This document shows, piece after piece, positions 9,838-55,323 of a stretch of 64,000 nt of DNA (positions are counted from its first letter, which is position 1; each line of letters begins with the position of its first letter). This stretch comes from Bryoerythrophyllum caledonicum (lineage: Eukaryota; Streptophyta; Bryopsida; Pottiales; Pottiaceae). A program made the translations under genes and the position numbers. The stretch spans positions 17,141,173 to 17,205,172 of the forward strand of contig OZ020526.1 of assembly GCA_963971425.1 (NCBI GenBank), read 5' to 3'. The notes beneath the pieces were generated by a model. It ran no database searches. It was not told the DNA's origin and was given only the letters and a program-made list of their open reading frames with translations.

Positions 9838-10789
9838 TTAACCCCTAAGGTACCAAGACAGTTTTACACCAAAAACACTTCAATACTCTTGGATTCTAGT
9901 GCATTGAACAAAGAAGGTAACTAAAAATTTTATTTTTAGTTCTGACCGTAGGATCTCAATAAAGGCTTATTAAATAATACATGTACAAAATTTCATAAAC
10001 TTTGACCGCACCGATTGAAAGGTTATAGTGTTTGAAGTCAAGCAAATGGTTCATTTTCTTCCCTGCGTTCAGTGGATCAGCAGACTTTGACTTCAGTTGG
10101 TGTCAAAAAATTTCACTACACAAGGTCTAAATATATTACCATGTTGTTAAGCATGATGTTAGCTCCTTACACACCAATTTTTAGAGGTAGAGACAGGGTG
10201 TAGCATATTCAAAACAAGTGTGCAAGGAGTGGAGGCTCGAAATTTGTTAATTCACACTTTAATTTTTTTTGAACTTAATATGTTTTCGATTGATAATCCG
10301 AATGGTTAATAAGAAGGTTTACATTACATATTGTTGTGGAAAAAATAAAAAGTGAATAATATGAAGATCTCTAGGTTTTATGTGGAATAGAAGAAGTTTT
10401 TTTGGTACCTTGCCCGACAATGAGTGACAATGTGTGAAAATGTTTGACTTGGGTTGGTATGCTATTTTTCACTAAAGACAAGAACTTTTTTTGACAACAT
10501 GAAGGGAAATAATATTATTTGCGAGTACTGAAAATTTCACTTTCAATAGAGTGTCCTATCAAAAGTTTTTGGAGGTGCCCGAGGTGCCCGCCCTCCCCAT
10601 TTAAAATTCAAAACCCTATAACTTTTTCATCAAATGTCCAATTTAGGAAAAAATTGTTTTCCCACAAAGGTCTTGGTAATGCCTTTTTATGGTAAGAATT
10701 TCAAAGATGAATGTTTGAAATTGACAGCATAGAAACCTGACCGAACTTTCAAAAAGCCCATTTTTGACACTTGGTCCTTTAGGGGTTAA
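9838..10789 (+). mobile_element. TTAA-flanked non-autonomous element (family R), copy 1
   Basis: 952 bp from TTAA at 9838 to TTAA at 10786. The ends are inverted: CCCCTAAGG on the left and, reversed, CCCCTAAAGGACC on the right. TTAA target duplication with CCC(C/T) ends is the hallmark of the piggyBac superfamily. There is no coding capacity. The interior is shared with the other R copies (blocks around TTGGAGGTGCCCG and GGTACCTTGCCCG). An older fragment with a similar start precedes it at about 9793. Confidence 0.65.
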
Positions 10790-11270
10790 ACTGCCGTTTC
10801 TAGTGCAATTAGTAAAGAAGGAAAAAAACGCTTTTATTTCCAAATTTACCCTTAGGATCTCAAATAATACTTACCAAATAACCTATTCACAAAATTTCAT
10901 TGACATTGACAGCACGGATGGAAAGATTATAGTGTTTGAAGTAGGAAAAACGGTTTATTTTCTTCGGTGCGTTCAGTGGATCAACAAACTTTGACTACAC
11001 TTGGTGTTAAATATTTGCACTACACATGGTCAAAATACATTGCCATTATGTTTAGCTTGCTATTAGTTCCTTGTACACCAATTTTTAGAGGTAAAGAAAG
11101 GGTGTAGTATATTCAAAAAAATTGTGCAAAGAGTGGAGGTTCAAAATAGGTCAATTCACGTTTTATGTTTTTGTGAACTAAATATGTTTTAGAATGTTGA
11201 TCCAGACGGTAAATAAGAAGGTTTACATCACATCTTGTAGTAGAAAAAATAAAAAGTGAAAAATATGAAG

Positions 11271-11520
11271 AAGAAGAACGCCGGTACCCTAAGGGGACCG
11301 GCGTGAATAAAGTGTCTGTTCGTTCCACTACTGAGACCATGCCCACCGGACAAGGAATTAGTAAGTTGGAACTACTTCCCCCTCTCGAGGGTAGACACTA
11401 TGCAACAAGTAGCCAAGGAACCACAAGCCAACCAACTAGCCACAAACTAACCACAAATCAAGCAATTTAGTCAAGAAACCTCAGAACCAACTAGTCATGA
11501 AAATCAAGGCGGGGGAGAAT
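11271..11520 (-). other. LINE 3' untranslated tail with terminal hairpin
   Basis: On minus the tail runs from a CCCCGCC segment through degenerate GGTTxGTGG repeats, a GGAAGTAGTTCC box and CCGGTGGGCATGG, to a hairpin (CGCCGGT ... ACCGGCG around a short TTA/TTC loop) and a TTC repeat. The same tail ends the insertions at 17428, 18955, 25421 and 55269. In LINEs of this kind the 3' tail is what the reverse transcriptase recognises. Confidence 0.75.
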
Positions 11521-11961
11521 TTAAGGGGGGTCCTGTGTATCGGGGAGGGCTTGATTGTTTTGGATTTTGCGTTTATGTAGGAGAATGGACATGGCATATT
11601 GGGTAGCAATGGTGTTAATGTTTTTAAAGGAGGTTTTAATTGTTTCAATGGGTATTTTGAAGGTATCTTCCAGAGATTTCATAGATGGGATAAAGGTGGT
11701 GGCACGAGCGCCGGATGTGATTACAATAAGGGGGTCGACTTTCCATCCGAGTGCGATGATGTCGTCAATAAGGGGTTGGTATTTATCTATTTTATTTTGG
11801 ATTGTTTCCGGAGATAATCTATCGTTGCAATATGTGAATTCAATGAATTGAATGGTGTATTCTTGGTTGATGTTATCGGGTGGTGGGTCATTATATGGTA
11901 AACCTTTAACGCAAAGGATGTCCGGTTTTAACCGAGCGTTGCATTGACATCTTAGGGTCAT
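11521..11961 (-). pseudogene. LINE ORF2 C-terminal restriction-like endonuclease domain
   Basis: The reading matches the PD-(D/E)XK-type endonuclease that follows the CCHC finger in R2/CRE-type LINEs: ARLKPDILCV (PD), then FIEFTYCND (the acidic residue and strand), then NKIDKYQPLI (the K..KY helix), then VITSGARAT (the SxRG-like strand). A second, independently truncated copy at 25421 preserves the same motifs, which argues that the domain is real. It would nick the genomic target for target-primed reverse transcription. A stop and a frame change separate it from the CCHC segment just upstream (11962-12083). Confidence 0.7.
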
Positions 11962-12083
11962 ACATGAGCATGGGAGTAGCCAAGGGGGAGGGTATTTTCT
12001 TGTGGGTGATTATTAAAAGTGCCGGCGTTCATTAATATGAAACATCTCAATTTATTATAGGAGGTGATTAGTTTTCGGACTTC

Positions 12084-12440
12084 TCATACCGCTTTATTAT
12101 GTCTTTTAACAATTAGAGAGTGTATGTGGTGGTTTTGGCATTTGAGTAGAACATGGAGCCATGTGTCCGGGTCCGTTGAGGGGCATATGGGGCATGTTAT
12201 GGATGGGAATCTTTCTATGCCAAAGAAGAGTTGTTTGCGAGCGTTTCCCATATATTGACCAGTACGGAATTTGATGAGGCATGTTATTTCTGAGTCTGAG
12301 ATGATGGGGTTTTTCCAAAAGTTTGTAGAGAGTTCATTGTCTATGTTGTTATTGTTAGTCCATTTTTCTATGTTAGGAATATTTTCTCTGATTGTGTCAA
12401 GGTTGTTGTAGAGGTCTAGTTTTTTGAGATATTTGCCCAA
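12084..12440 (-). pseudogene. LINE ORF2 CCHC zinc-finger segment
   Basis: Contains CPICPSTDPDTWLHVLLKC followed by a His-rich helix and RHNKAV. This is the Cys-x2-Cys ... His-x4-Cys finger plus RHN block that precedes the restriction-like endonuclease in R2-type LINEs and ends the ORF2 of I/Jockey-type LINEs. A stop follows RHNKAV. Confidence 0.75.
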
Positions 12441-12500
12441 AAATCTAATTGGGCCTTTGTCGGGGGTGTCTTCTTTGGAAGGCCAATCTTCTTTTTGAAA

Positions 12501-13139
12501 TTAGTATGGGGTGGCATGGGCATGTTTGTGTGGGTCTTTGGCATTTTTGTGTGTTTTTTCTCGGCCTTCTTTTGCTAATTTGTCTGCTTGTTCGTTGCCA
12601 TCAATGTTGGCATGGGCTCTCACTTTGTGGAGGGTTGTAATTTGTGTACGGTTTTGTAACATTTGGACCATTGACATTAGTATGGTTCGGTCAGGGTGGC
12701 TGTTGTGCAGGGTAGGGTGCGTTATTTGAGTGTTTAGTAGGTAAAGTGCATTTATACAGTCGGTGAATATATGTGCGGGTTCATTGGTGTATTTTGTTGT
12801 GATGATTTGTAGTGTTTTGTGAATGGCCATGAGTTCTGCTCTAAGGATATTTTGTAGTCCGTGGAGTCTTTTGGCTAGTTTAATTTCCTTAGTAAAATTA
12901 TATATGCCATAGCCAGCTTTTTCTCTGCGTCAGGATCCTGGGCTAATTTGTTCTGGTGGTTTAAAGGAGCCATCGATGTAATAACTATGTGCGGGGTTAA
13001 ATTTTGGTGTGGTGTGAGTTGGGTAGTCAGGGAGAGGAGGAGGTGTGACGGAGTAGTTTAGTGTGTTGTTGACATATTTTAGTTTTGACCATTTTTTACT
13101 TTTGTTTAGGGGGGTTTGTATGGGTGTTGGTGGGGCCAA
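12501..13139 (-). pseudogene. LINE ORF2 RNase H domain
   Basis: RNase HI-like order: SYYIDGSFKPP (first Asp), AELMAIHKTLQ (Glu), HIFTDCINALYLL (second Asp), KVRAHANIDGNEQADKLAK (His and last Asp). All catalytic positions are visible. An in-frame stop lies shortly after the first strand (about 12930). The domain removes template RNA during reverse transcription. It is present in the I, R1, Tad and Dualen groups and in some plant L1 lineages. Confidence 0.75.
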
Positions 13140-14047
13140 TTTTGTGTATATTCAGTGTATGTTTAAATTGTTTGTTATGGAGGTAAGTTCGGCAAGTTGT
13201 TCTAGGGAACCTAGGGTTTGATTTTGATGATGGACGCATAGTATTTGTAATGTTGATGGTTTGATTTGGGGTTTATTTAGTTCGGGTGGGATAGTAGGTT
13301 CTTCATATGGTATTGTGTCTGCCTCAAATATTGTAATGATATGGGAATCTGGAAATTGGTTTAGATGTTGGTTGTTGTTTTGGTACCAATTGTTGTTCGG
13401 TGTGATGATTATTGTATTTGTGTTATTTGGATCGTGTTTGGCGGCAAGTCGAGCCCAATGTATTGCTTGTTCTATATCTTTTTCGTTGTGGGGGTGAGCT
13501 ATACCTTTACCGATCCATTTATAGTCAAAGGCCTTTCCTAGGGATCCAGATACTTTATCTCTTTCGCAAGGTGAGTAGAATTTTTTTAGTTTGGTAGAAC
13601 ATGTGACCGGGGAAGAAAAGTATGCTTGTTCAATGTTAAAGGATGTGATTAATGAGTCTAAGATGGAGATTGTAATTGTATATTGCATATTTTTGAGGGG
13701 GTCTGTTTTTGGTATTCCGTATTTATATCTTTGGTATAGCCAGATTATTTCGGTTTCAAAGGGTTGGGTCGTTGGTTCGATGTTTGTAGGAGTTTGTAGT
13801 TTTATATTGTATTGATTCCATAACCATTGGAGTCTAGTGATGGGGATGGTGTGTAAATGTCGGCCATTTTCTTCGTATAGATGTGCTTGATTGTTATTTA
13901 TTTGGATTGTGTTTGAGGATGTAAGGATATCATTTTCGGGGTTGCATACTGTTGTGTGGATGTTTAAGAGAGGGATAATTATGGGTGGTGTTACGGATCT
14001 TGAGTCTGAGTATTGTTCTTCGGGGTGGTGTGCTAGGATGATATCCG

Positions 14048-16278
14048 TTATGTTTTGTTTTGAATTTTTTGGTAGTATTGTTTTAGTTTTTTTGTGTTAT
14101 GTGTGGAGGTGTTGGTGTCATGTTGTGGAAATAGGTCTCTTTGGGGAAGCCATTTATTGTATGTGTTATCATTGTGTTGCCATTGGCATAAATATTTTGT
14201 GTATGTGTTTTTTATATTATTTGTGTCTGTATGTTGGATATGTTTATGGTTTATGATATTTTTAATGGGATATGTAGTAGGGCTTTTAGGAATGTATGTT
14301 GGGGGGCGGGGGTGGTATGTATGTGGAGGGTTACGGAGATAGGTTGTTGTGGGAATATTTCTTGGGATGGATGTTATTGTTGAGGGTGATGAATGGATCT
14401 TTAAGTATATGAGAGTATGGGTGTATGTTGCAAGGAGTATGACATGTAGTGGGGCATGTTGGGTGGCAAAATAGTTGTTTAGCAACATTTAGGGCACTTT
14501 TTATTAGTTTGGATGGGGTGAAGTGGTGGGTTTTGAAATCCTCATTGTTCATGATGTGTGTGCCGTTAGGTAAAGTAATTTGATTTAGTTCAAAAATATT
14601 TTTTGAGAGGAGTTTTTGTAGGAGCTTTTGGGAGAGTTGGGCATTGAGTGTATTATGATTTGGTGTTTCTTGGCGCCATAGTATTTCTAGTATTGTAGGA
14701 TTAATGAGGAAGTTTGGGAGCGTACTTTTAAGGTGGGCTTTAGCTATATGTTTTAATAAGAAGAATGTTCTTGTTATTGGTGACCTTATGCAGTCACTTT
14801 TTTTAATTCTTGGTATGTTTTCGGCGCCACCATATTGGGCAAGGACATAGTGAATTAATCCATTATAAATTTTTCCAAGTCTTCCTTTATCGTTTAGAGC
14901 ATCTTGCAATTGTTCGCCTATACATCGGAGGTATGCGTTTTTGAAGGAGAAAGCTTCAAGTCCAAAAAAATTATGTGGTAGTTGGGTTATTGCGTTTGAC
15001 ATACATTTTGGTAATCCACATATGGTTTTTTGTATGGCCATTATTTTTTTATCAAGTTTTTTGATAGCTGGCATAGAGTATGGCACACTGTAGAAACTGT
15101 ATGCCACACCTGGGCGTAGTACGGTATCAATCATTTTTATTTTTTGTTTCATGTTAGTTCTTTGCATTGTTTGATGAGTTTCGTCGTTGTGGTGTGGATT
15201 TGGATTTTCCATTTTAGTGAGGGAACAAGGTTTGTGCCTAAGTATATGTATGGTTCATTTTGGTGTAGTATGGGGATCGGTTGATTGCGGTAATTGATGT
15301 TCAAGGCTTGCATTAGGGCTTTGAAAGTGGTAGGGTTCAATTTGGATTTGTTTAGGCATCCGGTAGCGGCACATTTTGGGACACCTACGTCCATACCGGC
15401 CCATTTACAATATCTATCAATTTTGTTTAGTTGTATTTGTATATGTTTGATTTTGTTAGTTATGACGGCAAGGTCATCTGCATATGCGGCAGAGTTTATT
15501 GTGACTTGTGATGTACCAAACGTATATCCGTTGTTGCCTCTTTCTAGCCATCTAAGTAGTGGTTCTATGAATATAATGAATAGATATGGGCTAAGGGTGT
15601 CCCCTTGTATAGTTCCTCTTTGTATGGGTATAGATTTTGTTTTCCCAAAGTGTTCACCAATATAGTAGGTGGATGATTGGGAGTAGATGTTTCCTACAAG
15701 TGTAGTTGCATCTTTTGGGTAGCCAAGGTCCATCATTATTGTTAGTAGTCGCGGATGGTCTATTGAGCCAAAGGCGTTTTTAAAGTCAACGTATAATATG
15801 TATATATCTTGGTTAGTGAATTTTGCGTCTTCTAGTGCGGCTATTATGGTTTGTATTTGTCGGGCGGTACTTCTCTCTGCTCTAAATCCTTGATTATCCT
15901 GTAAGATTTTGAATTTTTCACCGTATGAGGATAGTATGGAGGTAAGTGTACTAGTGAAGAGTTTGTATATTGTGTTAGCTAGTGCAATTGGCCTATGGTT
16001 GGGTAGTATAGGTGGGTCACCTTTTTTGTATAGTAAAATTGTTGCACTTGATTTCCATGAGGTTGGTTTTTGTTTTTGTTTATAGCAGTGGGAGAAGAAT
16101 AAGAATAGTAATTTATGAAACCTTGGCGGCATGTTTTTGAGTATTGAATTTTGTATGCGGTCTGGGCCTGGGGCTTTGTTGTTACCAAGATTTTGAAGGC
16201 ATGTGTCGTATGTGGTTCTATTAAGGTATTGATGTAGTGGAATTTCTGGTTCGCCTCTTTTGTCCAGGATGTATCCAT
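14048..16278 (-). pseudogene. LINE ORF2 reverse transcriptase and thumb
   Basis: Motifs in order: NKAPGPDRI near 16180; LLYKKGDPPILPNHRPIAL; ILYVDFKNAFGSIDH (motif A with catalytic Asp); IQGDTLSPYLF (motif B); AAYADDLAVI (motif C, YADD); GMDVGVPKCAATG. The thumb continues as PGVAYSFYSVPYS with LDKKIMAIQKTICGLPK, a well-known LINE block, to a Cys/His-rich part (LFCHPTCPTTCH). Frame changes occur at about 16130, 15200 and 14400. The palm segment itself is open for 327 codons, so decay is moderate. Confidence 0.85.
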
Positions 16279-17329
16279 CTAGGTCATGCCATGGATATTG
16301 GCGTACTGCACATTTACATTTGTTTTGATGTTGTGGTTGGTAATTACATGTTGGTACTATTGGTCTATTGGTTTTTGTTTGTTGGTTGAATATTTCATTT
16401 GCAATGTCTTCGGGGTTAGTTAGAATATTATTAAATTGGTCTGTGATACAATTTAGTGGTAGGGATTCTAGATTCTTAAATACTTTTCTGTTAATTTTCT
16501 TAGGGCTAATTTCATAGATGTGTCTATATTTTTAGATGTATTTTTTAATGTTATCTTTGGTGTGTTTTGAGGTTATTTTTCTGGCTTGTATGTTGGCATT
16601 TTTTGCAATTAGTGCGATCTCATTTATCCATGTATTGTGGGGCAGATCCGGGGGCGGTGGGGTAGGAATTTGGGTATGTTGTATAGTTAGTAGTTCATTG
16701 CATATAGGGTGGTTGCGCCATTGAGAATTATTTTTTACAAGTCTTATAGTTTTTTGTATAACATGGAATGTAGTGAGATGTTGTTTCCAAGTTTTAGAGA
16801 GTTTTCGTGGTAGATATCCTCCTTGCTGAGATGTTCTGTTTGTTAACTAGGGTGTTGGATGGGCTCTACAAGTTTGTTCTAGTGTGTTGGAGATTTCTTT
16901 GATGAGTGTATCTAGGGTTTCACATGCTTCTTGCCATTGTACTTGTGATAGTTGATTGTTATTTTCAAGAGTATTTATGAGGGAGTCTATTAGCATGGAT
17001 TGTTCTTCAAAGAATTTTGTGTTGAATTTTTCTAAGTTGCCTTTTGGAATGGGGTTGAGTATGCGTATAGTGTCATTGTTTAGGATTGTGGGTATTCTTA
17101 TTAATTAAGGTGTTATTTGGAATGTGTAAATGTATAGGTGTGTGGTCCGAGTTGAGAATAGCATCTTTGTTTGTTGTAGAGGTATATTGTGTATTGTTGT
17201 TGGTATTTATATAAAATCCATCTATTAGACTCCAATCGCTATAATTGTAACCGCCTTGTCTAGAGAATTGTGTATCGGTTTTTATGTAAGTGAGGTTTAA
17301 GTTTTATGTGAAGTGACGCCATTGGTAGT

Positions 17330-18010
17330 CTACAGTTTGGGGAGTGGTACTATGGTTTCCGTTTGGCATCCGATTAATGCTATATCTCTATTAAAGTCTC
17401 CGCATAGTATATATGTGTGATTGGGGTAGGGAAGTAGTTCCAGCTCACTAATTCCTTGTCCTGTGGGCATGGTCTTAGTAGTGGAACGAACAGACACTTT
17501 ATTCACGCCGGCCTCTTTCGGAGACCTGCGTTCTTCTTCTTCTTCTGTGTGATTGGGGTTGTTATTTATTTGAGATGTGATAGTGTTTTGTATGTCATTA
17601 ATGAATCTAGTATCTTCGGGGTGAGATGGCATATACATGTGGAGGACTAGCCACGGTTGTAGTGGATAATTAGTGATTTTGATTATTTGGAGATAAGGGG
17701 ATATGTGCATTGGGGTGGGGATTTTTTTGATGTTGCCCGGGAAAGAATATTTTTTATGTATTAGTGCAAGGAGACCACCGCGTCCCGGTGTATATGGTCT
17801 CCGTTGTTGAATACATCTTGTAAGTGCATGTGTATTGTTGAAAATGAGTTTATAGTCTTGAAATAAGTTTTGTATGTATTTTGTGGATTGTGTGGTGGAT
17901 AGTTTTGTTTCTTGTATAACTATAATGGCTGGCGGTGTGTTTGTATGTGTGACCAAATTTTGTAAGCTGGGGAGGGCGGTGTTTAGAGAGGAGGCATTCC
18001 ATGTGATTAT
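17330..18010 (-). pseudogene. LINE ORF2 APE-type endonuclease, with in-frame insertion
   Basis: APE-like order: WNASSLNTALPSL near 18000, IIVIQETKLS (catalytic Glu), PGRGGLLALI, WLVLHMYMPS, CGDFNRDI (catalytic Asp/Asn). The segment between MYMPS and CGDFN is interrupted by a 118 bp LINE-tail insertion with a 14 bp duplication. Total gain is 132 bp, exactly 44 codons, with no stop, so the frame reads through. The encoded insert begins EEEEERRSPKEAG and ends in ELELLP. A frame change separates this domain from the reverse transcriptase further down. Confidence 0.75.
17428..17545 (+). mobile_element. Severely 5'-truncated LINE tail inside the APE domain
   Basis: 118 bp, opposite in orientation to the host LINE, ending in the hairpin and (TTC)n. 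Perfect 14 bp duplications TGTGTGATTGGGGT flank it at 17414-17427 and 17546-17559. Sequence details (GTAGTTCCAGCTCACTAATT) are closer to the LINE tail than to the SINE tail. Confidence 0.85.
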
Positions 18011-18328
18011 ATATGTATTTTCTTGGTTTGATCTAATGTTTTGATTTTGAGGAGGGATGTAGGGAAGAGGTGGGGGTGGGTGGGTGTATTCTGGTATAGG
18101 GTCTAGACATTTTAGTGATTCATTTATGAGGTTGTTAGGGAGGTAAGGGAATTTTAGTTTTATTGTATCATTTGAGGGTGGTATGTCTTGACTATGTAAG
18201 AAGTCGTATAATCTTTTATGTATTGAATTCTCATGGGTTAAAATACTTTGGTTTTCTTCAAGGAATTTTGTATAGAGCTGTGGGGTATGAATGTGTCTTT
18301 CGGGTGGGTTTTGTAAGTTTGATAGGGT

Positions 18329-20247
18329 TTATAGGAGTGTGTCGGTCCATGATGTTATAGTCGGGTTTTGTGGGTTTAAAAGGCGATTGCATTCGTCTAT
18401 GTTTGGATGGATAGTAATCACCAAGGCGTATAAGATGTATGGCGATGGATGTATATTTTGTTGTTGTATGTATTGGGCTATGTTTGTGTGTGTGATGTTG
18501 TGTGTTAGGTGTAGTGTGTGTGTGGTTTTTAACAGGGGTGCAAATGTTTGGGCGATGTGTCTATATTCCGGTTGTAGTTTGATAGTATTTGGTATAAAGT
18601 ATAGTTTGGCATTTTTCTTATGTGGCGTAGGGTGTCTTTTTAGTATATTAGGCATGGGTCCCGGGTTGGTTTCTATGTCACCACCTAGAATTAGTAGTAG
18701 TTTATAGTGTTTAGGTTTTTGTGTTATTATTATTTTTTAGGATACTTATTTTTTGTGTGTATGTTAGTGTTAAATCTCGGTATTGTGTGGTTTTATTTAT
18801 CTTTTCGTATTTGGTTTTGTTTTGATTTTCTTCTAGGGGTGTTTTATAGTAGTGTGGGTTGTTGATGTGTTTTTTGGGAAGGTTGTGTAGTTTAGTGAAT
18901 ATATTGGATTTTGGGTTAGTCCATTGAGGGTCTATTGGTTTGTATATCTTTTGTAAGGCACCACGGCCTTGGTGTAGTGGTTTGAGTCATGGCACACCAG
19001 TGAGGTGGTTGTGAGTTCAAATCCCCATGCCGGCGTGGGGCCTACCACCATAGTCCACCCAACTATGGTGGGGGTCTTGAGACCTCGTTGTATGGGTACC
19101 CAAAAAGCCCTTGGGGGGGGATGACATGTTGGTTGTCTTTAAGGCACTTAGTGTAGAAAAGTGTTTACCTTCGAAAGGAGGAAGTAGCTCTAGATTCACT
19201 ATCCTTTGTCCGGTGGCCATCGGATTAGTGTATAGAATGAACAAACACTATATTCACGCCGGTCTCTTCGGGGGCCAGAGTTCTTCTTCTTTATATCTTT
19301 TGTGTATTTTGGTTTTTTTCCGTATATGTGCTTATGTGTGTAATTTGGTGTATGTGTTTGTGTGTGTTTTTATATGTAGTTGTGTTAGTATATATGTTGA
19401 GATTTATGCTAGTGTTTGTTATGATGTTTGTATTAGTGTGTATTTTGGTATCTATACTGGTGTTTATACTTGTATTTGTATTAGTATAACGGTCGGTATT
19501 TTGGTATTTTATTTTGTTCGTTTTTGGTTGTATATTATTATTATTATTATTTTAATTTTTAATTTTTATGTAGGTGTGTACGTATATGTTCTTATGATGG
19601 TGTGTAGTTGTTTTTATGTATGTGTGTAGTTGTATATGTGTCTTTGTATTTGGTTTTACATTAACATTTATACATATGTTTGCGGTGGTATGATCCTTAT
19701 TTGTTTAAATATTTATTTTTGTATCCGTATTAGTATTCCAACCGATATTTGTGTAGGTGTTCGTGCTAGTATTTTTACCATTATTTGTGTTAGTATTTGT
19801 ATTATTTTTCGTGCCAGTATTTGTATTAGTATGCGTGTAGACTACAATATTTGTACCATCATCCGTATAGTATTTTGGACTATATGTTATATAGTGTAGT
19901 ATTATCTTGAATTCTTTGTAGGATTTTAGGAAAATGTATAATACAAGTTTATTTTGAATATGTATAACTTTTGTATAGTTTCTTGTGTAGAATGTATTTG
20001 GGTTTGTGTATGTATTGGTAAGTATGTTTGTACACCTTTGTATGTATAAGTATATAGGTTTGTATTTAGTTTTGCAAGAAATACAGTGGGTGTAGGTTTT
20101 GTGTATAAAGTAGTCTAATTTGCCATACTTATCACATACTATGATGAAAATACTAGTTACTTTGTAGTCTTTGATCTCTACATGTTTGACGGTTGTCTTC
20201 CAAGCTTGGTTTGCCAATTGAGCTTGTGATGGCTTGCATTGTTGCAT
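18329..20247 (-). pseudogene. LINE ORF2 N-terminal part and low-complexity linker
   Basis: On minus, a frame starting with ATG 20247 (MQQCKPSQAQLANQAWK) overlaps the end of ORF1 by 95 bp. It has a small HCISCKTKYK patch and then a Thr/Asn-rich stretch made by ACAAAT-like simple repeats (about 19900-19320). After the SINE, an open segment (18655-18329, YILYALVITIHPN) leads toward the APE domain. I cannot assign a function. The overlap may mark the ORF1/ORF2 junction. Confidence 0.4.
18955..19291 (+). mobile_element. tRNA-derived SINE with a LINE-like 3' tail
   Basis: 337 bp, flanked by perfect 12 bp duplications TATATCTTTTGT (18943-18954 and 19292-19303). The head has a pol III A box (TTGGTGTAGTGG, about 18970) and B box (GAGTTCAAATCCC, about 19013), spaced as in tRNA. 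The middle is unrelated to tRNA. The last ~130 bp (from about 19162: GTGTTTACCTTCGAAAGG, then GGAAGTAG, TTGTCCGGTGG, TATTCACGCCGG) match the LINE tail, ending in TTC repeats. Such tail sharing is how SINEs borrow a partner LINE's reverse transcriptase. It lies inside the LINE, between ORF1 and the APE domain, in the opposite orientation. Confidence 0.85.
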
Positions 20248-21745
20248 ATGCGGCTCCCATGGATTCTTGAATACTTAGCATTTGGACTCTTAGTTCTTCA
20301 TTCTTTGCATCCACATACTCCTTCACTTCCAACCTCATCTTCTTGTTGCTTTCTTCCACAATTTCCACTATATCCTTCTTTGTCAAAGAGGGAGGTGTTT
20401 CTTTCATCCTGTATGTGGCCACCGTGTTGACCATGGCGGAGTTGATGTCGTCGAAGCCAAAGAGTTTGATTTGTTCTTGTGAGGGCGGCTCCTCTCCTTC
20501 CAAGCTCCTACGATGTGGTGCAAAGTCCACATAATTCCCTTCAATGGTGTATGTTTTCCCCACAAACTCACGGTAGACAATGGGGTTAGCACAATGTACG
20601 TTTACACTACCATTGTGTCTAGTTCCAATCACTTTGTGAAACCAAGTCTCTTTAATGTTGTTTGCACCTATAATTTTATGGATTATGTTGGTAGTGTCAA
20701 TGACACTCATACGGAGAGGTAGGGGAGAGAGGGTCAAGGTTAGAGCGTCTTTCTTAGCTTTGGAGGTATGCGTGGTTCGACCTCCGGAGATGTGCTTGGC
20801 ATGAAGTACTTCATGTTGGGTTGTGATTTGGTGGAGGTTGATCTTTTTGGCTTGCTCCGGGGTCGTAGCAATGATGAACGCGTGTGAGTCCTCTTTGAGC
20901 TTGTGTACTCCCGTGACTTCGATCTCTTGTCCTCTTGTGAAGCTATTGTGTAGAATGTCCTTGAAGAATGCTTGTGCTGAAATTCCTACAACGGAGAGGT
21001 TATAACTTACAATGTGATGGAAACTCTTGCAAACCTTGCCTATGGTATTATGGCCATCAATTTTGAGTATAAAGGGCCTAATACCTTTGAGCATCATAAG
21101 ACCGTCAATTTCTGGTTTTAATAAATGCAATTTAATGATACCCGCCCATACTCCCTTCTTTCCACCTTTTTTAATACTAAGGCATTGTATAGAAATTGGA
21201 TCAATGAGGTCCTCACCAAGTTCAATTTTCAAATATTCAAGTCTTTTAACAACCATGCTTCTAACTTCATCATGCATCATGGGGGAGGGAGGAGGTTCAA
21301 AATAAATGGCAACTTGGAAATCTAGTGCCAAACCTGAGGCATTATTGACAACAATGTCACATAGAACCTCGGTTATGTTGAAGTATTGGCCGTCCACGCC
21401 GTTTCTTGTACTCGGATATAGTTGTTGGGGGATCCTTGGGAAGGCAACTTTGGAACTGCTTGCTTCCTCTGCCTCCTCCTTCTTGAGACCCCTGACCATC
21501 AAGTCTTGGGCTATCTCCTTTCTGGGGAGCTCCTCCATGTCCTCCTCTTGTGCGAGAGACTCCATTACCGCAAAACCAAACCAAAAGTTAAAGCCCATGT
21601 TCAAGGGTTCGAGTGTGAAGGACTTACCTCTTCCTTCTGGGGTGTTCTTGTATTTTTTGAAGCTGCTGGTCGCTTCCTCTGGTTTTCTTGCAAGCTTCTC
21701 CTTCATGATTGTGGTGGAGGTTGCTGCTGGGGACTCTACTTCCAT
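20153..21745 (-). CDS. LINE ORF1 protein
   Basis: An uninterrupted 530-codon frame, the best preserved part of the LINE. Start at ATG 21745 (MEVESPAATS). No CCHC knuckle is seen, unlike many LINE ORF1 proteins. The body has alternating strand/helix segments (GVWAGIIKLHLLKPEIDG; TPEQAKKINLHQI; LRMSVIDTTNIIHKIIG). The C-terminal 90 residues are a charged helix, probably a coiled coil (KKDIVEIVEESNKKMRLEVK). LINE ORF1 proteins bind the element's RNA and act as nucleic-acid chaperones. That role here is inferred from position only. Confidence 0.65.
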   Translation of the reverse strand: MEVESPAATSTTIMKEKLARKPEEATSSFKKYKNTPEGRGKSFTLEPLNMGFNFWFGFAVMESLAQEEDMEELPRKEIAQDLMVRGLKKEEAEEASSSKVAFPRIPQQLYPSTRNGVDGQYFNITEVLCDIVVNNASGLALDFQVAIYFEPPPSPMMHDEVRSMVVKRLEYLKIELGEDLIDPISIQCLSIKKGGKKGVWAGIIKLHLLKPEIDGLMMLKGIRPFILKIDGHNTIGKVCKSFHHIVSYNLSVVGISAQAFFKDILHNSFTRGQEIEVTGVHKLKEDSHAFIIATTPEQAKKINLHQITTQHEVLHAKHISGGRTTHTSKAKKDALTLTLSPLPLRMSVIDTTNIIHKIIGANNIKETWFHKVIGTRHNGSVNVHCANPIVYREFVGKTYTIEGNYVDFAPHRRSLEGEEPPSQEQIKLFGFDDINSAMVNTVATYRMKETPPSLTKKDIVEIVEESNKKMRLEVKEYVDAKNEELRVQMLSIQESMGAAYATMQAITSSIGKPSLEDNRQTCRDQRLQSN

Positions 21746-24011
21746 GTCTTACTCAAAGAATAAGTTTCTTTTGGGGTCCCCATTGGACATTTTTGAAAAG
21801 GAGGAGGTGTTTTGATAGGAGGGACTATTAAGGAGGTTGCTACTGGTAATGTAGGGGGTTGCTGTGGATTCAGTGGGGTCACTAAGGAAGGTGAGAAGGT
21901 CGCTGTTGGGGGGGAGGGGGGTCGCTACTGGTTTAGGGAGGTCGCTAAAAGTGTGGGGGGATCTCTTTGGGCTTGTGGGAGGTCGCTGTAGGCTAGTGGG
22001 AGGTCACTGTGGGCTTGTGGGAGGTCGTTGTGGGCTTGTGGGAGGGTCGTTACTAGTTTGAATGGGGATGTTGGGTCGCTATGGTTCCTTGGTCGGGTTC
22101 TGGAGAGCGGGGAGGTGGGGTTTCGTGAGGCTGGGAGCTGGGGAGTTGAGGATGGGATCTGGTGAGTTGGGAGAGGAAGCTGGGGAGTTGGGGATAGACT
22201 CTGAATCAGGGGAGGAGCAAAGAGGCTACGAGGGAGGGGAGTAGCAGGGAAACTGAGGGGGAGGGGAGGGGAGGAAAGAGGGGAGGTGAGGGTCCGGGGT
22301 GGGGTGGAGGTGGAGAGAGGATTGGGAGGGGAGAGTGGGGCGCAGCTCTGTGTGGGTAGGGGTAGATCAGGAGCAAGGGGGAGTGGGGTTCGCCTTGAGG
22401 TGGGGAGGGGGGATTCGGGGAGATGGGAGGGGGAGGTCTGTTGTAGGAGTCTCGGGTTCTCCGCCGACGAGTTTGTCTCCAGGGTCCTGTCGAGTGGTCG
22501 CTGAGTCGGTGGGGGAGAGCGCTGCAGAAGTCTCGGGTTCTCCGCCGACGAGCTTGTCTCGAGGGTCCTCTCGAGTGATCGCTGAGTCGGTTTGGGAGAG
22601 CGCTGGGTCCGCGGGTGAGAGCGCAAGATCCACCTCCGAGGAAGGTCGCGGAGGTCGCGGCGTCCACTCTACAGCGAGTCCTCCTTTGCTGGAACTTTGG
22701 TGAGTCTCCATGGTTCCTACTTCGTTTCTTCTGTGTGCGTGTCTTCTGTGATCTTGTGTGTTCTTGGTCTTCAGTCTTCGTGTTCGTCCTTCTTGCGTCT
22801 GTCTCTGTCTGTGTGCTTCGTGTGCGTGGTGTCTTCGTTTGCAGCTGCGTTTCCTTCACGTTCTGGGATGTATAGGGGGTGTGGGAGGTTGTGGTAGTTC
22901 TGGGAGGGAGGGAATCTATGGAAAGAGAGGAAGGTCGTAGAGGAGAGAGGTTGTGTTGGTTTCTATAGAAAAGTTGGCAGCGCTTCCGCGTGGGGAGGGT
23001 AGATCTGGGCCGTGGGGTGTGGAGGAAGGTATACCAGTGTAATGTGGATCTAATTCTTGCGGTGGTGTGTCTGTCTAGTGATGTGTTTGGAGGAGGGGAG
23101 GGGCATCCTAGGTTTTGTTTGAGTGGGGGAGAGGTAGAGGTAGGGGTTTGTAAGCTGAAGATAACTTTACTGTTACAACAATAAAAGAGTGGGCTGGTGA
23201 GTAACTTACCTAGATCCGATAGAGCTGACTTTCTGAGTTGCTTGTGCAGATCTGATGTTGTGCTCGCTTGGGGCTCGGCCAGATTCTTGGAAGATGCGCT
23301 CCACAACGTTCTGGGAGCTGCTGGTCCTTTGTTTTTGCAGTGGGCAGCTCTGCTACTGCTGCAGCTGGTCCATTTAATAAAACACACTATTGTGTGTACA
23401 ATTCTACATATTATGTTAGCACAATCTAATGTTACTAGCAAGTATTTGCAAGAGATGGAAGGGTGATATATTTTGTTAACAAGCTCTAATGTAAATAACA
23501 AACAGTTGCAAGAGATGGGAGGGTGAGGGGTAGCCTGTGATGGAGAGTTGAAGCTACGCTGCAGCAGTATCCGGTGATGTCCTTGTGCGATCTTGACGTT
23601 ATGAGTTCCTAGGTTGGGGAAGTGGGGCCTTGATGGGGAGGTTTGCAGATCTAGTCCCAGTACTCCAGATCTGGTGTGGATCGTTGTCTATGGGAACTAA
23701 GTGTCTACAGATTTGGCACCAACACAAAGAACCCCCGCTTCAGAACAAACTTTGCACAGATCTGCAACTACTTAAGGCCTCTTCAAACTCTCCTCCCACA
23801 GATCTGGTGTTTGAGCCTTCCAACACATCAACTCTGCATCCCAAATCTCACCTTACTACCCTGATCTGCACACTACGAGGGCTCACAATAGGGCCAGCCA
23901 ACTCCTATTGCACGAGGTTTGCAGTTCACAGGCTAAGTCTCCACCTCCCCTCACCAAGAAATACGGAGCTCACTCACAGGACATTCCTAATTTTTTCCGC
24001 CACCATTAACC
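21746..24011 (-). other. LINE 5' leader, strongly G-rich on the plus strand
   Basis: From 21850 to about 23160 the plus strand is G-rich (C-rich in LINE sense), with runs such as GGGGAGGGGAGGGGAGG near 22262. It has tandem repeats: ~20 bp GCTTGTGGGAGGTC units at 21965-22050, and two ~75 bp units around 22446-22592 containing TCTCGGGTTCTCCGCCGACG. Long Pro/Ser/Thr-rich minus frames here (for example 23501-22206) are probably composition artefacts or a disordered leader. The 5' end at 24011 is fixed by the target-site duplication. A promoter is expected here but I see no defined motif. Confidence 0.55.
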
Positions 24012-24425: not shown

Positions 24426-25420
24426 TGGGAATGCAAGGCACTCAATTCCAACAATTTATGGATACAAGCACGGCGGGGCCGGTTTGTGTCAATGCGGGCC
24501 CTACGATCACGAGTTGCGTTCCAAATGCTTCTCATACGCATGCTTGTGCGCTTCCCTTGTAATTGGCACTGCTTCTGCCTATATAACAACACATAACCGG
24601 TTGACGTCAATCGCTTGCATTTTGGTAGATCCGGGGTAGGATTTGGTGGATTGGAATGATATGGCCATTGATTCGGGGTTGCTGGATGATGGTTGATGGA
24701 TGCTGGTGGAATTTCTACATGAACATTGTAGTCGTGCCTAGCTGCCTCCTCAACCTTGTCCAGGCCTTTGTTCTGGCTCGCCTCTTATTGCTTCGTCCCC
24801 AAATTGTTCTTCATCCATGTCGTCAGGAGGATTTATTGATGGATTGAAGTTGGTTGGTGGCGTCTTGATGGTGGCAGTTTGCTGCTGGTTTTTTTTTCCA
24901 GGAGAGGCCTTACAACTCCAGCAATCCCAAAATCAATTTATGAATTTAAGACCAAGTTTTTAATCCTATCTTATTTGTATCCGTTATGATTTGTAAAGAA
25001 CATTCAGATTTTAAATAAATTACAAATTACAAATTTGTTCAAAGAATTTTATTTTCATTTATTTTTCTTCATTGATAAATCTTTATTTATTTTATCAAGA
25101 GCCTCCATGAAGATTATAAAACAAGGAATGCTATTTTTTATTTTTTATTTCACTTTAGAGAGTTCATTTTACTTGAACCCATTGACAATTAAAAACATGA
25201 TGCTTTTTATTCTGTTGTTGTCTTGAAGAACCACTATTGGCCACAATATTCTACATGCATGGTGTTCTATCAAACATGATAAGGTTAGATATCGAAATAA
25301 CCTCCAATTAGAAAATGTTTGTTTAACAAGTCTCCATCCAAATGTATAAGTGTTGCAAAAATCTATTATTTTTTTGTATTCTACATGATTAACATCCATG
25401 CTTGTATATTCGTTCCCAAC
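24426..25420. other. No supportable gene
   Basis: Mixed then AT-rich sequence. A short part near 25245-25330 resembles the reverse of repeat S. The open frames are short and unrecognised. Confidence 0.4.
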
Positions 25421-26099
25421 AGTTAAAGGATTACCATATAAGGACTCACCACCCGTTAATATCAACCAAGACTACACCATTCAATTCATTGAATTCACAT
25501 ATTGCAACGATAGATTTTACCTGGAAACAATCCAAAATAAAATAGATTAATACCAACCCCTTATTGACGACATCATCACCCTCGGATGGAATGTTGACCC
25601 CCTTATTGTTATCACATCCGGCGCTCGTGCCACCACCTTTATCCCATCTATGAAAACTCTAGAAGATACCTTCAAGATATCCACTGAAACAATTAAAACC
25701 TCCTTTAAAAACATTAACACCATAGCTATTCAATATGCCATGTCCATTCTTCTACATAAACGCAAAATCGAAAACAACCAAGCCCTCCCCGATACACAAG
25801 ACCCCCCTTAAATTTCCCCCCGCCTTGATTTATCATGACTAGTTGGTTTGTGGTTTTTGACTACTTGCTTGGTTGTGGTTGGTTCGTTGGCTAGTTGCTT
25901 GGTTAGTGATTGGTTGGTTGGTTGGTTGGTCTGTGGTTCTTTGGCTACTTGTTACATAGTGTCTACCCTCGAGAGAGGGAAGTAGTTCCAGCTTACTAGT
26001 TCTTTGTCCAGTGGGCATGGTCTTAGTAGTGGAATGAACAGACACTTTATTCACGCCGGCCTCCTTCGGAGACCGGCGTTCTTCTTCTTCTTCTTCGTC
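25421..26099 (+). mobile_element. 5'-truncated copy of the dual-endonuclease LINE
   Basis: 679 bp flanked by 12 bp duplications TTCGTTCCCAAC (25409-25420 and 26100-26111). It begins inside the restriction-like endonuclease (FIEFTYCND, VITSGARAT and TTFIPSMK all readable) and continues through the 3' UTR, hairpin and (TTC)n tail. One in-frame stop interrupts the endonuclease reading (KID, stop, YQPLI). Truncation at the 5' end with a short duplication is the usual product of target-primed reverse transcription. Confidence 0.85.
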
Positions 26100-27764: not shown

Positions 27765-29502
27765 TCAAAAGTGATTATCCCAATAGCAGGGACTATTGCA
27801 CATAAAAATGTGACCACAACCAGGACACATGTGATTGGTCCGTTTTCGACAAAATCTACACACTTTACGCATATTCCCCATGTTTTTGCTCCCATGCACG
27901 GTAGTTGTTTTTGACTTTACTCTCGAATAGCCGGTTTTTCTGCCTTTCCGCTTGGTAGATAACTCCTTTGCAAGTTGCAAATGGAAATTAAAATGAGATA
28001 TTCGTTCTAGTCTCATTTTAAAACTTACATCTTTGTGAATTATCCATGCATTCACTATAAGCATATCTAATAGGAAAAAAAATAGCCTATGCCACCACTT
28101 GTGACCTTTTGTCAAACAAGAATAGTATCCCCTCAACTGATCAGCCACAACCACACCTCTCATATTCCTCGTGTATTGTAGATGCATCGGACCTGCAGAA
28201 TTTTTTTTCTTTTCTCCTCCAATCCTTCTGTACACATATAAATTTTCCCCACTTTGTGCAATTGGTTCCGCATGTGTTGATAACAATAAAACAAGGTTTT
28301 TATCTTTCCATACCATACAACAGATTTCCCTACATTCATGTATCCTGTAATCCACCCAACTAATTTCTTTGTTCTTTGTAATGCCATTTGCAGACATGGA
28401 TTTTGGCAAATATTTCCTGTCCGATCTACATGTGCCAGTTGCCATGATGCCATTCTCCAAAAGCTCCATAAATAATGGCACAGATGTAAAAAAGTTGTCA
28501 GTTGTTACAATATGGCCTCTTCCTACTAAATCATACAACACATCAATCACCACGTTTTTGCCTTGAAACCCTTCACCTTTCCTTCACTTCACATCATATT
28601 GTACATCACCTCCTCTGCTTTAGCTCTCACATACTTCTATTTGAGTGATAGGTGCAACATTAGAAGAAATACCACCTTTTCCAATATATACTTGGAAGCT
28701 CCAAACGTATTTGGAAATTGAGTCTGAAACCTCCCATACTTTCGATTCAAACCAAACTGGTTTTTTAGGCATGTAAACTCGAATCGGTGAGTATTTTTCC
28801 TGGAATCTGACCATTGTCTCATCAACCGTAACTTGCTGATTAGGATTCCACATTTCTTTACACCAATCCCTAACTTCATCCAACATCCACCGTACTTTGA
28901 GAAGCTTGTTATAAGTTGGGCTCTTGCGGTTTGATAAGGTTGGTGCGGCATTTGCTACGTGTAAACACCTAGTGATAGATTCAAATCTTTCCCTAGTCAT
29001 TATTTGAGATATGACAGGGCAATGCAAAAGTGGCTCATCCCTAGACCAATAAAGTCTTTTAGAAGGTAGAATTTTTAGTCCTATGTATAAGCAGATTGAT
29101 AAATAAGCTTGAAACTCTTCAATGCTTAAAGGAACCCAAAATAATCCCCCTCTTGTTTTTTGCAACTTGTCATCTATATTATATAACTTCATATGCATAC
29201 CGATTAGTCTCAGCTACAATTTGCCTTTGTAACCTTTGAGACGAATTTTTTTCAAATATCCCCATAGGTGATGGAAGTCGTCCATATGGGTGCACACATC
29301 CTGGTTTGGGCCCAGTGAACGGCAATGGAGGATTTTTATAAGATTGTGTGTCTTTATTCCATGTTGATGTCCCATATTTTATATCCATATCATTCAATCT
29401 TTTCCCCTTTCTTTTGCGACTCTTCTCTTGATCTACACTAGAGTGTGTTTCTTTGCCTTGCGTTTCCTTTGCTTCTCTTTTGTTGCCCAGAAAGTCTTCC
29501 AT
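27765..29502 (-). pseudogene. piggyBac transposase (DDE_Tnp_1_7), decayed
   Basis: All diagnostic parts are present in order. An N-terminal charged region is followed by the domain start (PLSIEEFQAYLSICLYIGLK), the first Asp (QVTVDETMVRFQEK), the second Asp (HIVTTDNFFTSVPLF), the third Asp (GVVVADQLRGYYS), and a Cys-rich C-terminal domain (VCRFCRKRTNHMCPGCGHIF). The enzyme cuts at TTAA and leaves no scar. Lesions: a frame change near 29190 and two in-frame stops near 28620-28580. The rest is open, including 262 codons to the end. piggyBac is common in animals and rare in land plants. The family R and related TTAA elements in this window have matching end types. Confidence 0.85.
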
Positions 29503-31420: not shown

Positions 31421-32698
31421 TTAGCGTCCAAAGGTGTCACGAATTTGGTAGTGCTTCTCTTCATCTTGGATGTTGACCAACCCTCTTGCAAACCAATCAA
31501 ACGATAAGGGTTTGTCCTGTTTTCCGTGTCCTCCGTGCTCTACGGACGCACTTGTAGACTCTAAGAGGTATTCCTGACTGAACTCTGGATTTAATTCTTC
31601 ATCCTCGATAATCATGTTGTGCAAAATTACACAACATGTCCATATGCTCTTCATTGTAGCCTTGTCCCATAATCGTGATGGGTTCTTAATGATTCCCATC
31701 GTGCTTGCAATACTCCAAAGGCTCGCTCAACATCCTTTCTTGCGGCCTCTTGTTGCTTTGCGTACCACTGCCTCTTTTCCCCTTCAGGATCATTTATGGT
31801 CTTTTGGAACATTGCCCAATATGGATAGATGTCATATGCTAGAAGGTAGCATGCGTTGTACTCATGTCCATTGATTATGAATCTTGCATTTAGACCTTTC
31901 CCGCGCACATAATTGGTCATCAAAGGGCTTCTGTCTACAACATTGATGTCGATGTTTGACCCCGGCATTCCAATAAACACATACCAAAACCAAAGATTCC
32001 TAAAGGTGATTGCTTCCATAACTACCGATCTTGTTCCATCTTTGTTTTGGTACTGTCTGTGCCAACTAGTAGGACAATTCTTCCAAATCCAGTGTCTGCA
32101 ATCAATAGAGCCGAACATTTCTGGAAAGCCCAGGAGCTCATTAAGTCACAATTGGTGCAGTGTGTCTACAGCCGTTGGATGTCTCAAGTATTCTGCTCCA
32201 AAAATCTCGACTACGGCTACAACAATCCTCTTGAAGCACTCTGTGGTTGTTGTCTCAGCAATGCACACGTACTCATCAATAGAACCATAACTGAGGATGC
32301 GTAATGCGGCAGTTATTTTTTGAATAGAAGATAACCCTAGCCGCCCCACAACATCCTCTTTCTGCATGAAGTATAAATCATGATTCACCACTGCGTCATG
32401 AATTTCTGCGAAACAAGGGCTTTTGCATGCAAAAGCGACACCAAAAAATATCAGGGCTGTGAACCATACTCTTTGCAAAGTAGTCGTTCCAAATTTGATT
32501 GTGCCTAAGTGCAAAGTTTCTGTCGATGTTAGGAGCTTTACCTCGCTTAGAACCACCATGCTCTCTCTCAAGGATATGTCTACGTTCCTCTTCATATCCT
32601 TTCTTTAGTTCTTCATGCATCATGGTTACAATGTGAAGTTGTTATTCTTTGTCATCAGAGGCAAGACAATCTTCCACCCACATTTGGAATTTCTCCAT
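31421..32698 (-). pseudogene. PIF/Harbinger ALP1-like transposase, decayed
   Basis: Different from the Harbinger family at the window ends. It follows the plant PIF pattern closely: start at ATG 32698 (MEKFQMWVEDCLAS), KRGKAPNIDRN, VVGRLGLSSIQKITAALRIL, first Asp in MFGSIDCRHWIWKNCP, IGMPGSNIDINVVDRSPL, INGHEYNACYLLAYDIYP (second Asp), and the final Glu in RKDVERAFGVLQARW, then WTCCVILHNMIIEDE. Lesions: an in-frame TAA after ASDDKE, a frame change near 32410, an in-frame TGA just before LNELLGFPEMFG, and a frame change after QARW. Element ends and a Myb partner were not found. Confidence 0.85.
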
Positions 32699-33341: not shown

Positions 33342-40621
<7,280 letters not shown>

Positions 40622-55268: not shown

Positions 55269-55323
55269 TAACAGACACTTTATTCACGCCGGTTCCCTTC
55301 GGGTACCGGCGTTCTTCTTCTTT
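55269..55323 (+). mobile_element. Minimal LINE 3' tail insertion (55 bp)
   Basis: Only the last 55 bp of the LINE tail: ACAGACACTTTATTCACG, the hairpin and TTC repeats. Flanked by 11 bp duplications TGCTAGCGAGA (55258-55268 and 55324-55334). Confidence 0.85.

Follow-up and report, generated by a model that had tools for sequence, protein, structure and literature searches.

Dual-endonuclease elements and the layout of the window copy

Dualen/RandI retrotransposons combine an APE endonuclease and a PD-(D/E)XK endonuclease in one element (PMC3636483, PMC4640811; here and below, sources are cited from the excerpts available), and RNase H is also listed for them (PMC4640811). Green-algal RandI families are listed with non-poly(A) tails (PMC3747384). 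LINEs with a restriction-like endonuclease (RLE) are described with an RH pair at the start of the first helix, a GXW motif and a zinc knuckle spacing of X7-8 (PMC5678591). Finally, in viruses and in some non-LTR retrotransposons a 2A/StopGo peptide, D(V/I)ExNPGP, lies ahead of the enzyme part (PMC4981915, PMC12846837). We compared these systems with a LINE in a window of 64,000 nucleotides, i.e. the whole stretch of DNA that was analysed. Its features are the following:

11267-23990, minus strand: whole LINE copy, from the older subfamily that has an ORF1; its 5' end lies near 23990 and it finishes in a (TTC)n tail at 11267
20153-21748, minus: ORF1, 531 codons stop to stop
18656-18709, minus: 2A/StopGo-like motif, HYKLLLILGGDIETNPGP, followed directly by MPNILK
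18014-18655, minus: N-terminal domain, conserved, lying between 2A and APE and unmatched in Pfam
17097-18013, minus: APE endonuclease with ITWN, QETKL, GDFN and SDH motifs, interrupted in this copy
17428-17546, minus: antisense insertion of 119 bp in APE, matching the element's own 3' end
14700-16573, minus: reverse transcriptase (RT) with thumb; YADD at 15473-15484, frame broken around 15152
14051-14299, minus: linker segment, conserved; its chromodomain-like match stays below threshold and is a lead only
13200-14042, minus: PCIF1-family domain (relative of the cap-adenosine methyltransferase), AHPHN at 13485-13499
12501-12929, minus: RNase H, PF00075, E 1.5e-12
12138-12194, minus: CCHC zinc knuckle, CX2CX9HX4C, placed by script
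11524-12107, minus: R2-type RLE with KRHNKAV (RH) at 12087-12107, KPDILCV at 11908-11928, IEFTYC at 11827-11844 and KIDKYQ at 11776-11793
25419-26095, plus: second, 5'-truncated copy with RLE C-terminus and 3' UTR

The element probably belongs to a large, recently active non-LTR retrotransposon family working like the dual-endonuclease Dualen/RandI elements. A dual-endonuclease LINE is a known, Dualen/RandI-like kind, to which the PCIF1-like domain and the 2A motif may be new. One long frame holds, in order, 2A/StopGo, the N-terminal domain, APE, RT, the linker, the PCIF1-family domain, RNase H, CCHC and the RLE-like domain. The initial annotation had placed APE, RT, RNase H, a CCHC finger and a PD...EFT...K..KY domain on one element, and all were recovered, the first three with Pfam and the CCHC and RLE motifs by direct reading. 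The window copy also has a separate ORF1, a 2A motif and a PCIF1-like domain, which lay beyond that description.

The window copy is broken into about six frame segments. Its boundaries, first given as 11271-24011, were corrected at both ends. In comparison with other copies, 37 of 43 matches begin at positions 307-328 of an 800-nucleotide query, which sets the 5' end near 23990, and alignment with the L051 copy and with sampled 3' ends places the 3' boundary at 11267, inside the (TTC)n tail. The 12-bp duplication said to bound the element does exist, with 11 of 12 positions identical (CTTCATATTTTT versus CTTCATGTTTTT), but it overlaps the tail, and if it were the boundary, the 5' end would carry some 18 bases too many. 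The 119-bp insertion in APE is a short truncated copy or a SINE, flanked by CCCCAATCACACA repeats. The second truncated copy was rightly credited with the same C-terminal domain: positions 25419-25808 (plus strand) encode a stretch 87% identical to the C-terminal fragment of L051 (residues 181-310).

A recently amplified family and its relatives

A genome-wide search for further copies, as had been proposed, retrieved unbroken ones: an open frame of exactly 3087 codons holds 33 of the 126 scored matches in the same genome. Amplification of the family is very recent; 3933 nt are identical across 24 of 25 fetched loci. The young full-length copy measures about 9.9 kb, versus 12.7 kb here, and the sampled 3' ends carry a (TTC)n tail. 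Two young copies were read at both ends, one with a clear 11-bp target duplication (C2) and one where no duplication was seen (C3). No single common target emerged from 20 sampled 3' ends; insertions occur at many sites, and at least 5 of the 20 3' flanks fall within other family copies. Where dN/dS could be estimated, it was 0.05-0.07 for RT, 0.054 for RLE (one estimable pair), 0.11 for APE, 0.12-0.14 for RNase H and 0.14-0.19 for the PCIF1-like domain. APE, RT and RLE are under purifying selection wherever this ratio was estimable. In the window copy, which is broken, the Pfam match to APE falls narrowly short of the curated cut-off (PF03372, E 6e-5); unbroken stretches pass that cut-off (PF03372, 2.5e-6 in L051; PF14529, 6.2e-7 in L081). 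RNase H reaches 5.7e-14 in L051.

The RT is detected by PF00078 in the window (E 9.2e-27) and above the cut-off in the unbroken copy P0001 (7.1e-26). In the PDB it matches three R2 entries best (1e-27 to 8.7e-26), with human L1 behind at 5.6e-18. The affinity to R2 is uneven, as the R2-type entries 8gh6 and 8ibw (1.9e-13 and 3.4e-12) score below L1. We inferred an unrooted RT tree of eight rows, flagged for long branches and built without Dualen or RTE sequences. A partial L1 of this genome and human L1 fall on one side (support 99/97) and the element lies outside them. The element resembles plant L1 and RTE LINEs in having APE and RT, often joined there by RNase H (PMC9033089). It differs from plant L1 in its RT placement, in its (TTC)n instead of poly(A) tail and in the presence of an RLE; the first two of these speak against an L1 identity, the RT placement within the limits of the eight-row tree. 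Three R2 entries head its RT matches, and like R2 and other RLE LINEs it has a CCHC, after which comes a domain bearing RH, PD and KX2KY. Unlike them, it has APE, RNase H and extra domains, and where R2-type elements usually insert at a fixed site, it shows no single target in the sampled 3' ends.

The initial annotation had seen a Dualen-like lineage persisting in a land plant. The gene content of the window suits a land plant or, as a further possibility, a streptophyte alga. The likeness stands, compared by description only: an APE paired with a PD-(D/E)XK-type endonuclease, RNase H and a non-poly(A) tail, with an RT that the tree sets apart from L1. Common descent with Dualen/RandI is a separate and less certain claim. 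Algal Dualen elements carry a cysteine protease/OTU-like domain, and no peptidase or OTU domain was found in the unbroken P0001 frame (Pfam, E<=1), which argues against common descent; we do not take this domain as defining for the clade. The plant-like host is a further difference from Dualen/RandI, and the PCIF1-like domain and 2A motif may be others. We nevertheless lean slightly towards true membership of the clade, with the PCIF1-like and 2A modules ancestral there or gained later, as the endonuclease pairing, the RNase H and the tails fit the published descriptions (PMC3636483, PMC4640811, PMC3747384).

Alternatively, an APE LINE of another clade may have captured an R2-type RLE later, in convergence with Dualen. 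Ahead of 2A, the 5' modules of different subfamilies resemble each other only in low-complexity sequence, so that modules are probably exchanged; the PCIF1-like insert is out of the ordinary, and two R2-type entries score below L1 against the RT. All three points suit a chimera. However, RT, PCIF1-like domain, RNase H and C-terminal domain keep a constant order in five diverse loci (L080-L084), as far as each reaches, and R2 entries are what the RT itself matches best in the PDB. We regard such a capture as rather unlikely.

On the favoured reading of a dual-endonuclease element, ribosomes on the upstream frame would skip at NPG/P, freeing an N-terminal leader, and the enzyme polyprotein would begin P-M-P-N. 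This polyprotein would bind its own RNA and nick DNA without one fixed target, and target-primed reverse transcription would start from the (TTC)n end of the RNA. APE may cut one strand and RLE the other, with RNase H removing the template. The PCIF1-like domain, which lacks NPPF, would most likely bind RNA or the cap and not methylate.

The restriction-like endonuclease

The element holds both endonuclease types of Dualen/RandI, the RLE being recognised by its motifs, its predicted strand order and its constraint, with a weak fold match. RH, PD, E and KX2KY and the predicted helix-strand order fit the published description of LINE RLEs (PMC5678591), with three departures: the GXW motif was not seen in the element's RLE, the knuckle spacer of X9 is one residue longer than X7-8, and RH lies about ten residues inside the first predicted helix and not at its start. 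The RLE frame is broken between 12087 and 12009 in the window copy.

The endonuclease fold that had been proposed for this region was approached by Foldseek without reaching significance. Among the 50 matches listed, cap-snatching endonucleases of bunyaviruses or arenaviruses, or polymerases holding one, make up 48; no match is significant (best E 0.037, TM-score by query length about 0.2 or less, mostly above 10 A rmsd). These viral endonucleases have the PD-(D/E)XK fold; no R2 entry is among the matches listed. The RLE model itself is poor (mean pLDDT 44), and a PDB search by sequence gave no significant match.

Alternatively, APE alone might cut, the C-terminal domain merely binding DNA or RNA. 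The lack of GXW and of a significant structural match would fit a vestigial RLE, as would the lack of a single target common to the sampled insertions and the loss in L082 of a catalytic lysine, the first K of KX2KY. Yet RLE and RT have equally low dN/dS, and RH, PD, E and KX2KY are retained in L051, L083 and L081, which are 89% (L083) and 68% (L081) identical to L051 there. We therefore consider a vestigial RLE unlikely.

A 2A/StopGo-like motif and a domain related to PCIF1

The D-I-E-x-N-P-G-P motif directly precedes the conserved protein, as read in the window and in five fetched loci. The pattern has 1714 exact matches genome-wide, versus 2 for a reversed control. It conforms to D(V/I)ExNPGP and lies in an open frame, of which translation is predicted. 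The frame upstream has no stop in 739 codons, where shuffled sequences have 36 on average and none of 500 is free of stops. Its first ATG in the young copy is at codon 477. As in viruses and other retrotransposons, the putative 2A stands before the enzyme part; it differs in occurring in a plant-like genome.

The ATG after NPGP could also be the real start, the motif being a by-product of shared ancestry. Such an ATG directly follows at all eight motif sites read, L055 and L081 have no in-frame ATG ahead of 2A (in L055 the motif has decayed to DIETNLGS), and recent copies must account for much of the total of 1714 matches. This reading appears quite improbable against the retention of G-D-I-E-x-N-P-G-P, with x = T or Q, in L051 and L081, of which the N-terminal domains are only 53% identical, against the differing motif codons among the sites listed, and against an upstream frame stop-free far beyond chance.

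The PCIF1-like domain sits between RT and RNase H. It resembles PCIF1 (CAPAM), the cap-adenosine N6-methyltransferase, in its profile score (PCIF1_WW at 1.4e-11 in P0001, above the cut-off) and in its top PDB match by domain profile. In contrast to PCIF1, it lies inside a retrotransposon polyprotein, Pfam finds no WW domain in P0001, and HPH replaces the catalytic NPPF in all nine aligned copies. HPH also occurs in 10 of 12 PF12237 loci, the other two being L045 with DPH and L046 with PPH; three loci belong to both this set and the nine-copy set. A spurious similarity is very unlikely: a single-sequence PDB search did not find PCIF1, the profile E-values are modest (0.0041 and 0.031) and the AlphaFold model is unusable (pLDDT 36), but Pfam gives 44.8 and 48.1 bits (cut-off 31.1) in two copies 57% identical, and two PCIF1 sequences rank first of 177,635 by profile search.

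A PCIF1-family domain inside a retrotransposon connects the replication of LINEs with the biology of the mRNA cap. In the open-licence PMC literature, of partial coverage and thus weak as evidence of absence, we found neither a PCIF1-like domain nor a 2A reported for a dual-endonuclease LINE. Against a 2026 survey that reports no evidence of natural 2A use by plant viruses (PMC12846837), its natural occurrence in a gene of the plant lineage is notable. More speculatively, and with doubt on our side, a plant-lineage LINE may have captured a PCIF1-derived cap-reading domain and a 2A recoding signal, so that one frame yields a separate leader, which in the young subfamily takes the place of ORF1, together with an enzyme that has two nucleases and recognises its own RNA by the 5' cap. 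If true, this would favour full-length insertions, provide a natural 2A in plants and be the first case known to us of a retrotransposon using a cap-methyltransferase fold. Two nucleases with a 2A and a PCIF1-related domain would alter views of the coding content of plant LINEs. Dual-endonuclease elements are also relevant to the proposal that replacement of the RLE gave rise to APE LINEs (PMC4640811), and a recent family with unbroken copies outside green algae would make both nucleases, their cutting order and the reason for having both testable.

ORF1 has no Pfam match. Related copies extend it upstream to MSNGDPKRN, which lies here at 21764-21790 and is cut off by a stop. At least 11 of 81 ORF1 matches (76 rows compared) have a PCIF1-like match 5.8-9.9 kb downstream on the same strand. 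The gene content of the window is plant-like, with matches to a WW+Sac protein, TIR and Plant_tran.

Domain layout and copies of the LINE family

The frame segments used for the initial annotation were seen in the ORF listing, with the LINE of the window on the minus strand. Among the domains that this annotation had named, a Pfam search retrieved the reverse transcriptase (RT, E = 9.2e-27) and RNase H (1.5e-12), and left the APE endonuclease just below the cut-off (6e-5). The R2-type restriction-like endonuclease (RLE) is covered by no Pfam model in this search. An unexpected match to PF12237 (PCIF1_WW, 4.3e-9, above the cut-off) lies between RT and RNase H. The second, truncated copy that had been proposed was recovered at 25419-26095 (+) of the window, with the same C-terminus.

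When its 5'-terminal 800 bases were used as query, 37 of 43 matches began at query 307-328, which places the 5' boundary of the window copy at approximately 23973-23994; its 3' end is at 11267, within (TTC)n. The copy had been described as bounded by a 12 bp duplication. Because 11 of the 12 bases agree and the repeat overlaps the tail, we regard a real target duplication as no more than plausible. The full-length young copy on contig C2 (35711563 to ~35721460, ~9.9 kb) has a clean 11-bp target duplication (GTATAAGCAAG); reading both ends of the young copy on contig C3 revealed none. The 5' boundary of the C2 copy is common to two young copies. Searching the genome (437 Mb, 894 contigs) with the PCIF1-like piece gave 126 scored hits from 5667 first-look candidates. 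A frame of exactly 3087 codons holds 33 of these hits, and a second group of 13 hits has one common score and a 2809-codon frame. Of the loci with the first score, 25 were fetched: 24 are identical across 3933 nt and the remaining one differs by one base. Judged from the sequences, the amplification of the LINE family is very young. The LINE also recurs 62.2 kb apart (G000 C15:17154327 and C15:17216546, identical 314-residue piece), and positions 1-300 of the window are repeated at 62201-62500 with 100% identity. Either ~62 kb were duplicated in tandem not long ago, or the duplication was produced by the assembly.

The protein of the unbroken young frame (P0001) consists of a C/A-rich leader, a degenerate 2A, a canonical 2A, an N-terminal domain, APE and RT, followed by a cysteine-rich linker, the PCIF1-like domain, RNase H, CCHC and RLE. 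This order is kept in five diverged loci of the same genome (L080-L084), in the parts that each contains. Locus L051 is 45-67% identical to L081 or L080 outside RT. The window copy belongs to an older subfamily, one that has ORF1 as a frame of its own. No ORF1-like frame is present in the young copy, whose whole 5' part is one different frame, and we rejected homology between the young and the ORF1-bearing 5' ends, as only low-complexity matches occur before the 2A. Since the 5' module differs up to the 2A in this way, the motif would be the joint at which the subfamilies diverge, and the leader upstream of it may stand in for ORF1 in the young subfamily. Of 81 ORF1 hits, 11 have a PCIF1-like hit on the same strand 5.8-9.9 kb downstream, a lower bound because the comparison was made with 76 chosen rows, one of which came from a different search.

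The linker contains a chromodomain-like stretch (YLCQW...KWLPQRDL; L051 6430-6660 and window 14051-14299). Its matches are below the Pfam cut-off (E = 0.016 in L051 and 0.034 in L084), Pfam reported none for L080, L081 and L083, and we keep it as a lead only. The PCIF1-like alignments are without L050 and L043, the A3 alignment is without L047, L039, L045, L005, L042, L078 and L079, and the RT alignment is without L082 and the window; L040 and L042 are shortened. Stops occur in L050, L047 and L082, and the rows dropped go beyond these three.

Two endonucleases and the affinities of the RT

The APE domain keeps ITWN, QETKL, RGGL and GDFN, and also SDH where the row extends that far. In the RLE domain, the first helix carries RH, PD follows, the next strand has an acidic residue, and KX2KY lies in the second helix; these are the residues published for LINE RLEs (PMC5678591). 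L082 is the exception, as it lost the first K of KX2KY. RH lies about ten residues inside the first helix, whereas in the published LINE RLEs it is at the start (PMC5678591), and the GXW motif of LINE RLEs is absent from the domain. The AlphaFold model of RLE is weak overall (pLDDT 44); its better half consists of a helix, strands, a strand after PD, a strand with E, a helix with K and a strand. Among the Foldseek matches listed, 48 of 50 are cap-snatching endonucleases of bunyaviruses or arenaviruses, or polymerases containing one, and none is an R2 entry. These matches are non-significant alone (best E 0.037, low TM-scores, large rmsd), and they point to the right fold class. The sole match of the RLE profile in the PDB was a plant terpene synthase (E = 0.41 and 0.19), a chance hit, and a match of the RLE to DUF3501 (E = 0.1 and 0.041, below the cut-off) was ignored. 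The dN/dS of RLE (0.054, one estimable pair) resembles that of RT (0.049-0.067), the ratio being saturated and not estimable for several of the most diverged pairs. From sequence comparison, we consider both endonucleases of the LINE to be under constraint.

The best PDB matches of the RT are three R2 entries (1e-27, 6.4e-26 and 8.7e-26), followed by human L1 entries (5.6e-18 to 2.3e-17) and, below these, by two further R2-type entries, 8gh6 (1.9e-13) and 8ibw (3.4e-12). Having R2 entries both above and below L1, the RT shows an uneven affinity to R2. In the RT tree, which is unrooted, has 8 rows with long branches flagged and is without RTE, Dualen and CR1, human L1 and a partial L1 of this genome form one side (99/97), with the element and R2 opposite. 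Land-plant LINEs are described as L1 and RTE (PMC9033089). An ordinary plant L1 is rejected here by the RT tree, the tail and the RLE. Viral relatives were not found in IMG/VR by tblastn with the RT and C-terminal alignments.

Dualen is described from Chlamydomonas and relatives (PMC8226300). Dualen/RandI elements are alike in having both endonucleases; relative to the descriptions found, the 2A and the PCIF1-like domain would be two further modules of this LINE. The accessible parts of the open-licence literature, to which the founding Dualen paper does not belong, contained no report of either module in Dualen/RandI-type elements. The LINE family is real, young and unusual and carries two constrained endonucleases, and it probably works like Dualen/RandI.

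The 2A motif and the PCIF1-like domain

The 2A/StopGo motif (D(V/I)ExNPGP before the conserved protein) reads DIETNPGP or DIEQNPGP in the window and in loci L051, L056, L081, L082 and L084, and has a decayed form in L055. It is directly followed by M-P-N at all eight sites read. Two tandem motifs are present in each of L082 and L084. They are found at 66/261 (L082, minus strand) and 64/259 (L084), where part of the N-terminal start is repeated as well (MPNIFKRH, MPNILKRH). On contig C1 below 34.3 Mb, 9 of 11 N-domain hits have a listed 2A directly upstream (lists compared by eye). There are 1714 exact matches genome-wide against 2 for the reversed pattern, but many are recent copies and the number alone is therefore no proof of selection. 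A stronger point for selection is that the motif is retained in both L081 and L051, although their adjoining N-domains are only 53% identical.

No stop interrupts the frame that precedes the 2A over 739 codons in the young copy or over 279 codons in L055; shuffled sequences averaged 36 and 19 stops, respectively, with 0 of 500 shuffles stop-free in each case. Since this is far outside the shuffles, the frame is probably translated. ATG is absent from the first 476 codons of this frame in the young copy, and L055 has none ahead of the 2A; translation may start at a non-AUG codon, after splicing or by reinitiation. Long stop-free C/A-rich frames with a late or no ATG extend over L051 1-2130 and L055 3356-4190.

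The PCIF1-like domain scores 44.8 bits in L051 and 48.1 bits in L081 (cut-off 31.1). When a nine-copy profile was compared with the PDB, two PCIF1 sequences ranked first (E = 0.0041 and 0.031), and the second alignment extends to the NPPF site, which it places opposite AHPH. HPH occurs in all 9 aligned copies and in 10 of 12 loci fetched by the family search. The dN/dS of 0.14-0.19 indicates that the domain is kept. In what is the least certain step, we infer that it might bind RNA or cap without classic methylation. Its AlphaFold model was discarded (pLDDT 36).

Insertion sites and neighbourhood

We sampled 20 3' ends and found the element end joined to flanking DNA in 19 (L067 is masked there); the last few bases differ slightly in L064 and L072. 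No single target sequence is common to the 20 flanks. The 3' flanks of young copies L062, L065, L067, L068 and L071 are other, older copies of the LINE family, entered at various points and in either orientation, and those of L075 and L077 correspond to the C/A-rich part of the family. One repeat is common to the 3' flanks of L059 and L066 (97% over 233 nt, offset 7); a different one, oppositely oriented, occurs in those of both L070 and L072. It is possible that the family leans towards inserting into its own copies. Short fragments with the LINE 3' end occur in the window at 17428-17546, 19160-19291 and 55270-55322, one of them bounded by ~13-bp repeats; most likely, they represent a SINE or truncated copies of very short length that the LINE mobilised.

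The window also contains the following features:
9894-11341, 47248-47558, 53244-54121, 58875-59469 and 60118-60863, both orientations: repeats of one family, several hundred bases long and dispersed around the LINE
27768-28583 and 31654-32145: DNA transposons, DDE_Tnp_1_7 and Plant_tran matches (Pfam)
33652-34731: WW domain adjoining a Sac phosphatase domain

We take the transposons to be of the piggyBac and Harbinger type. With the Plant_tran transposase and a TIR protein that the window also encodes, the WW and Sac protein makes a host of the plant lineage likely. A WW domain beside Sac is a plant-type arrangement, and the protein is presumably of the SAC9 type of plants.
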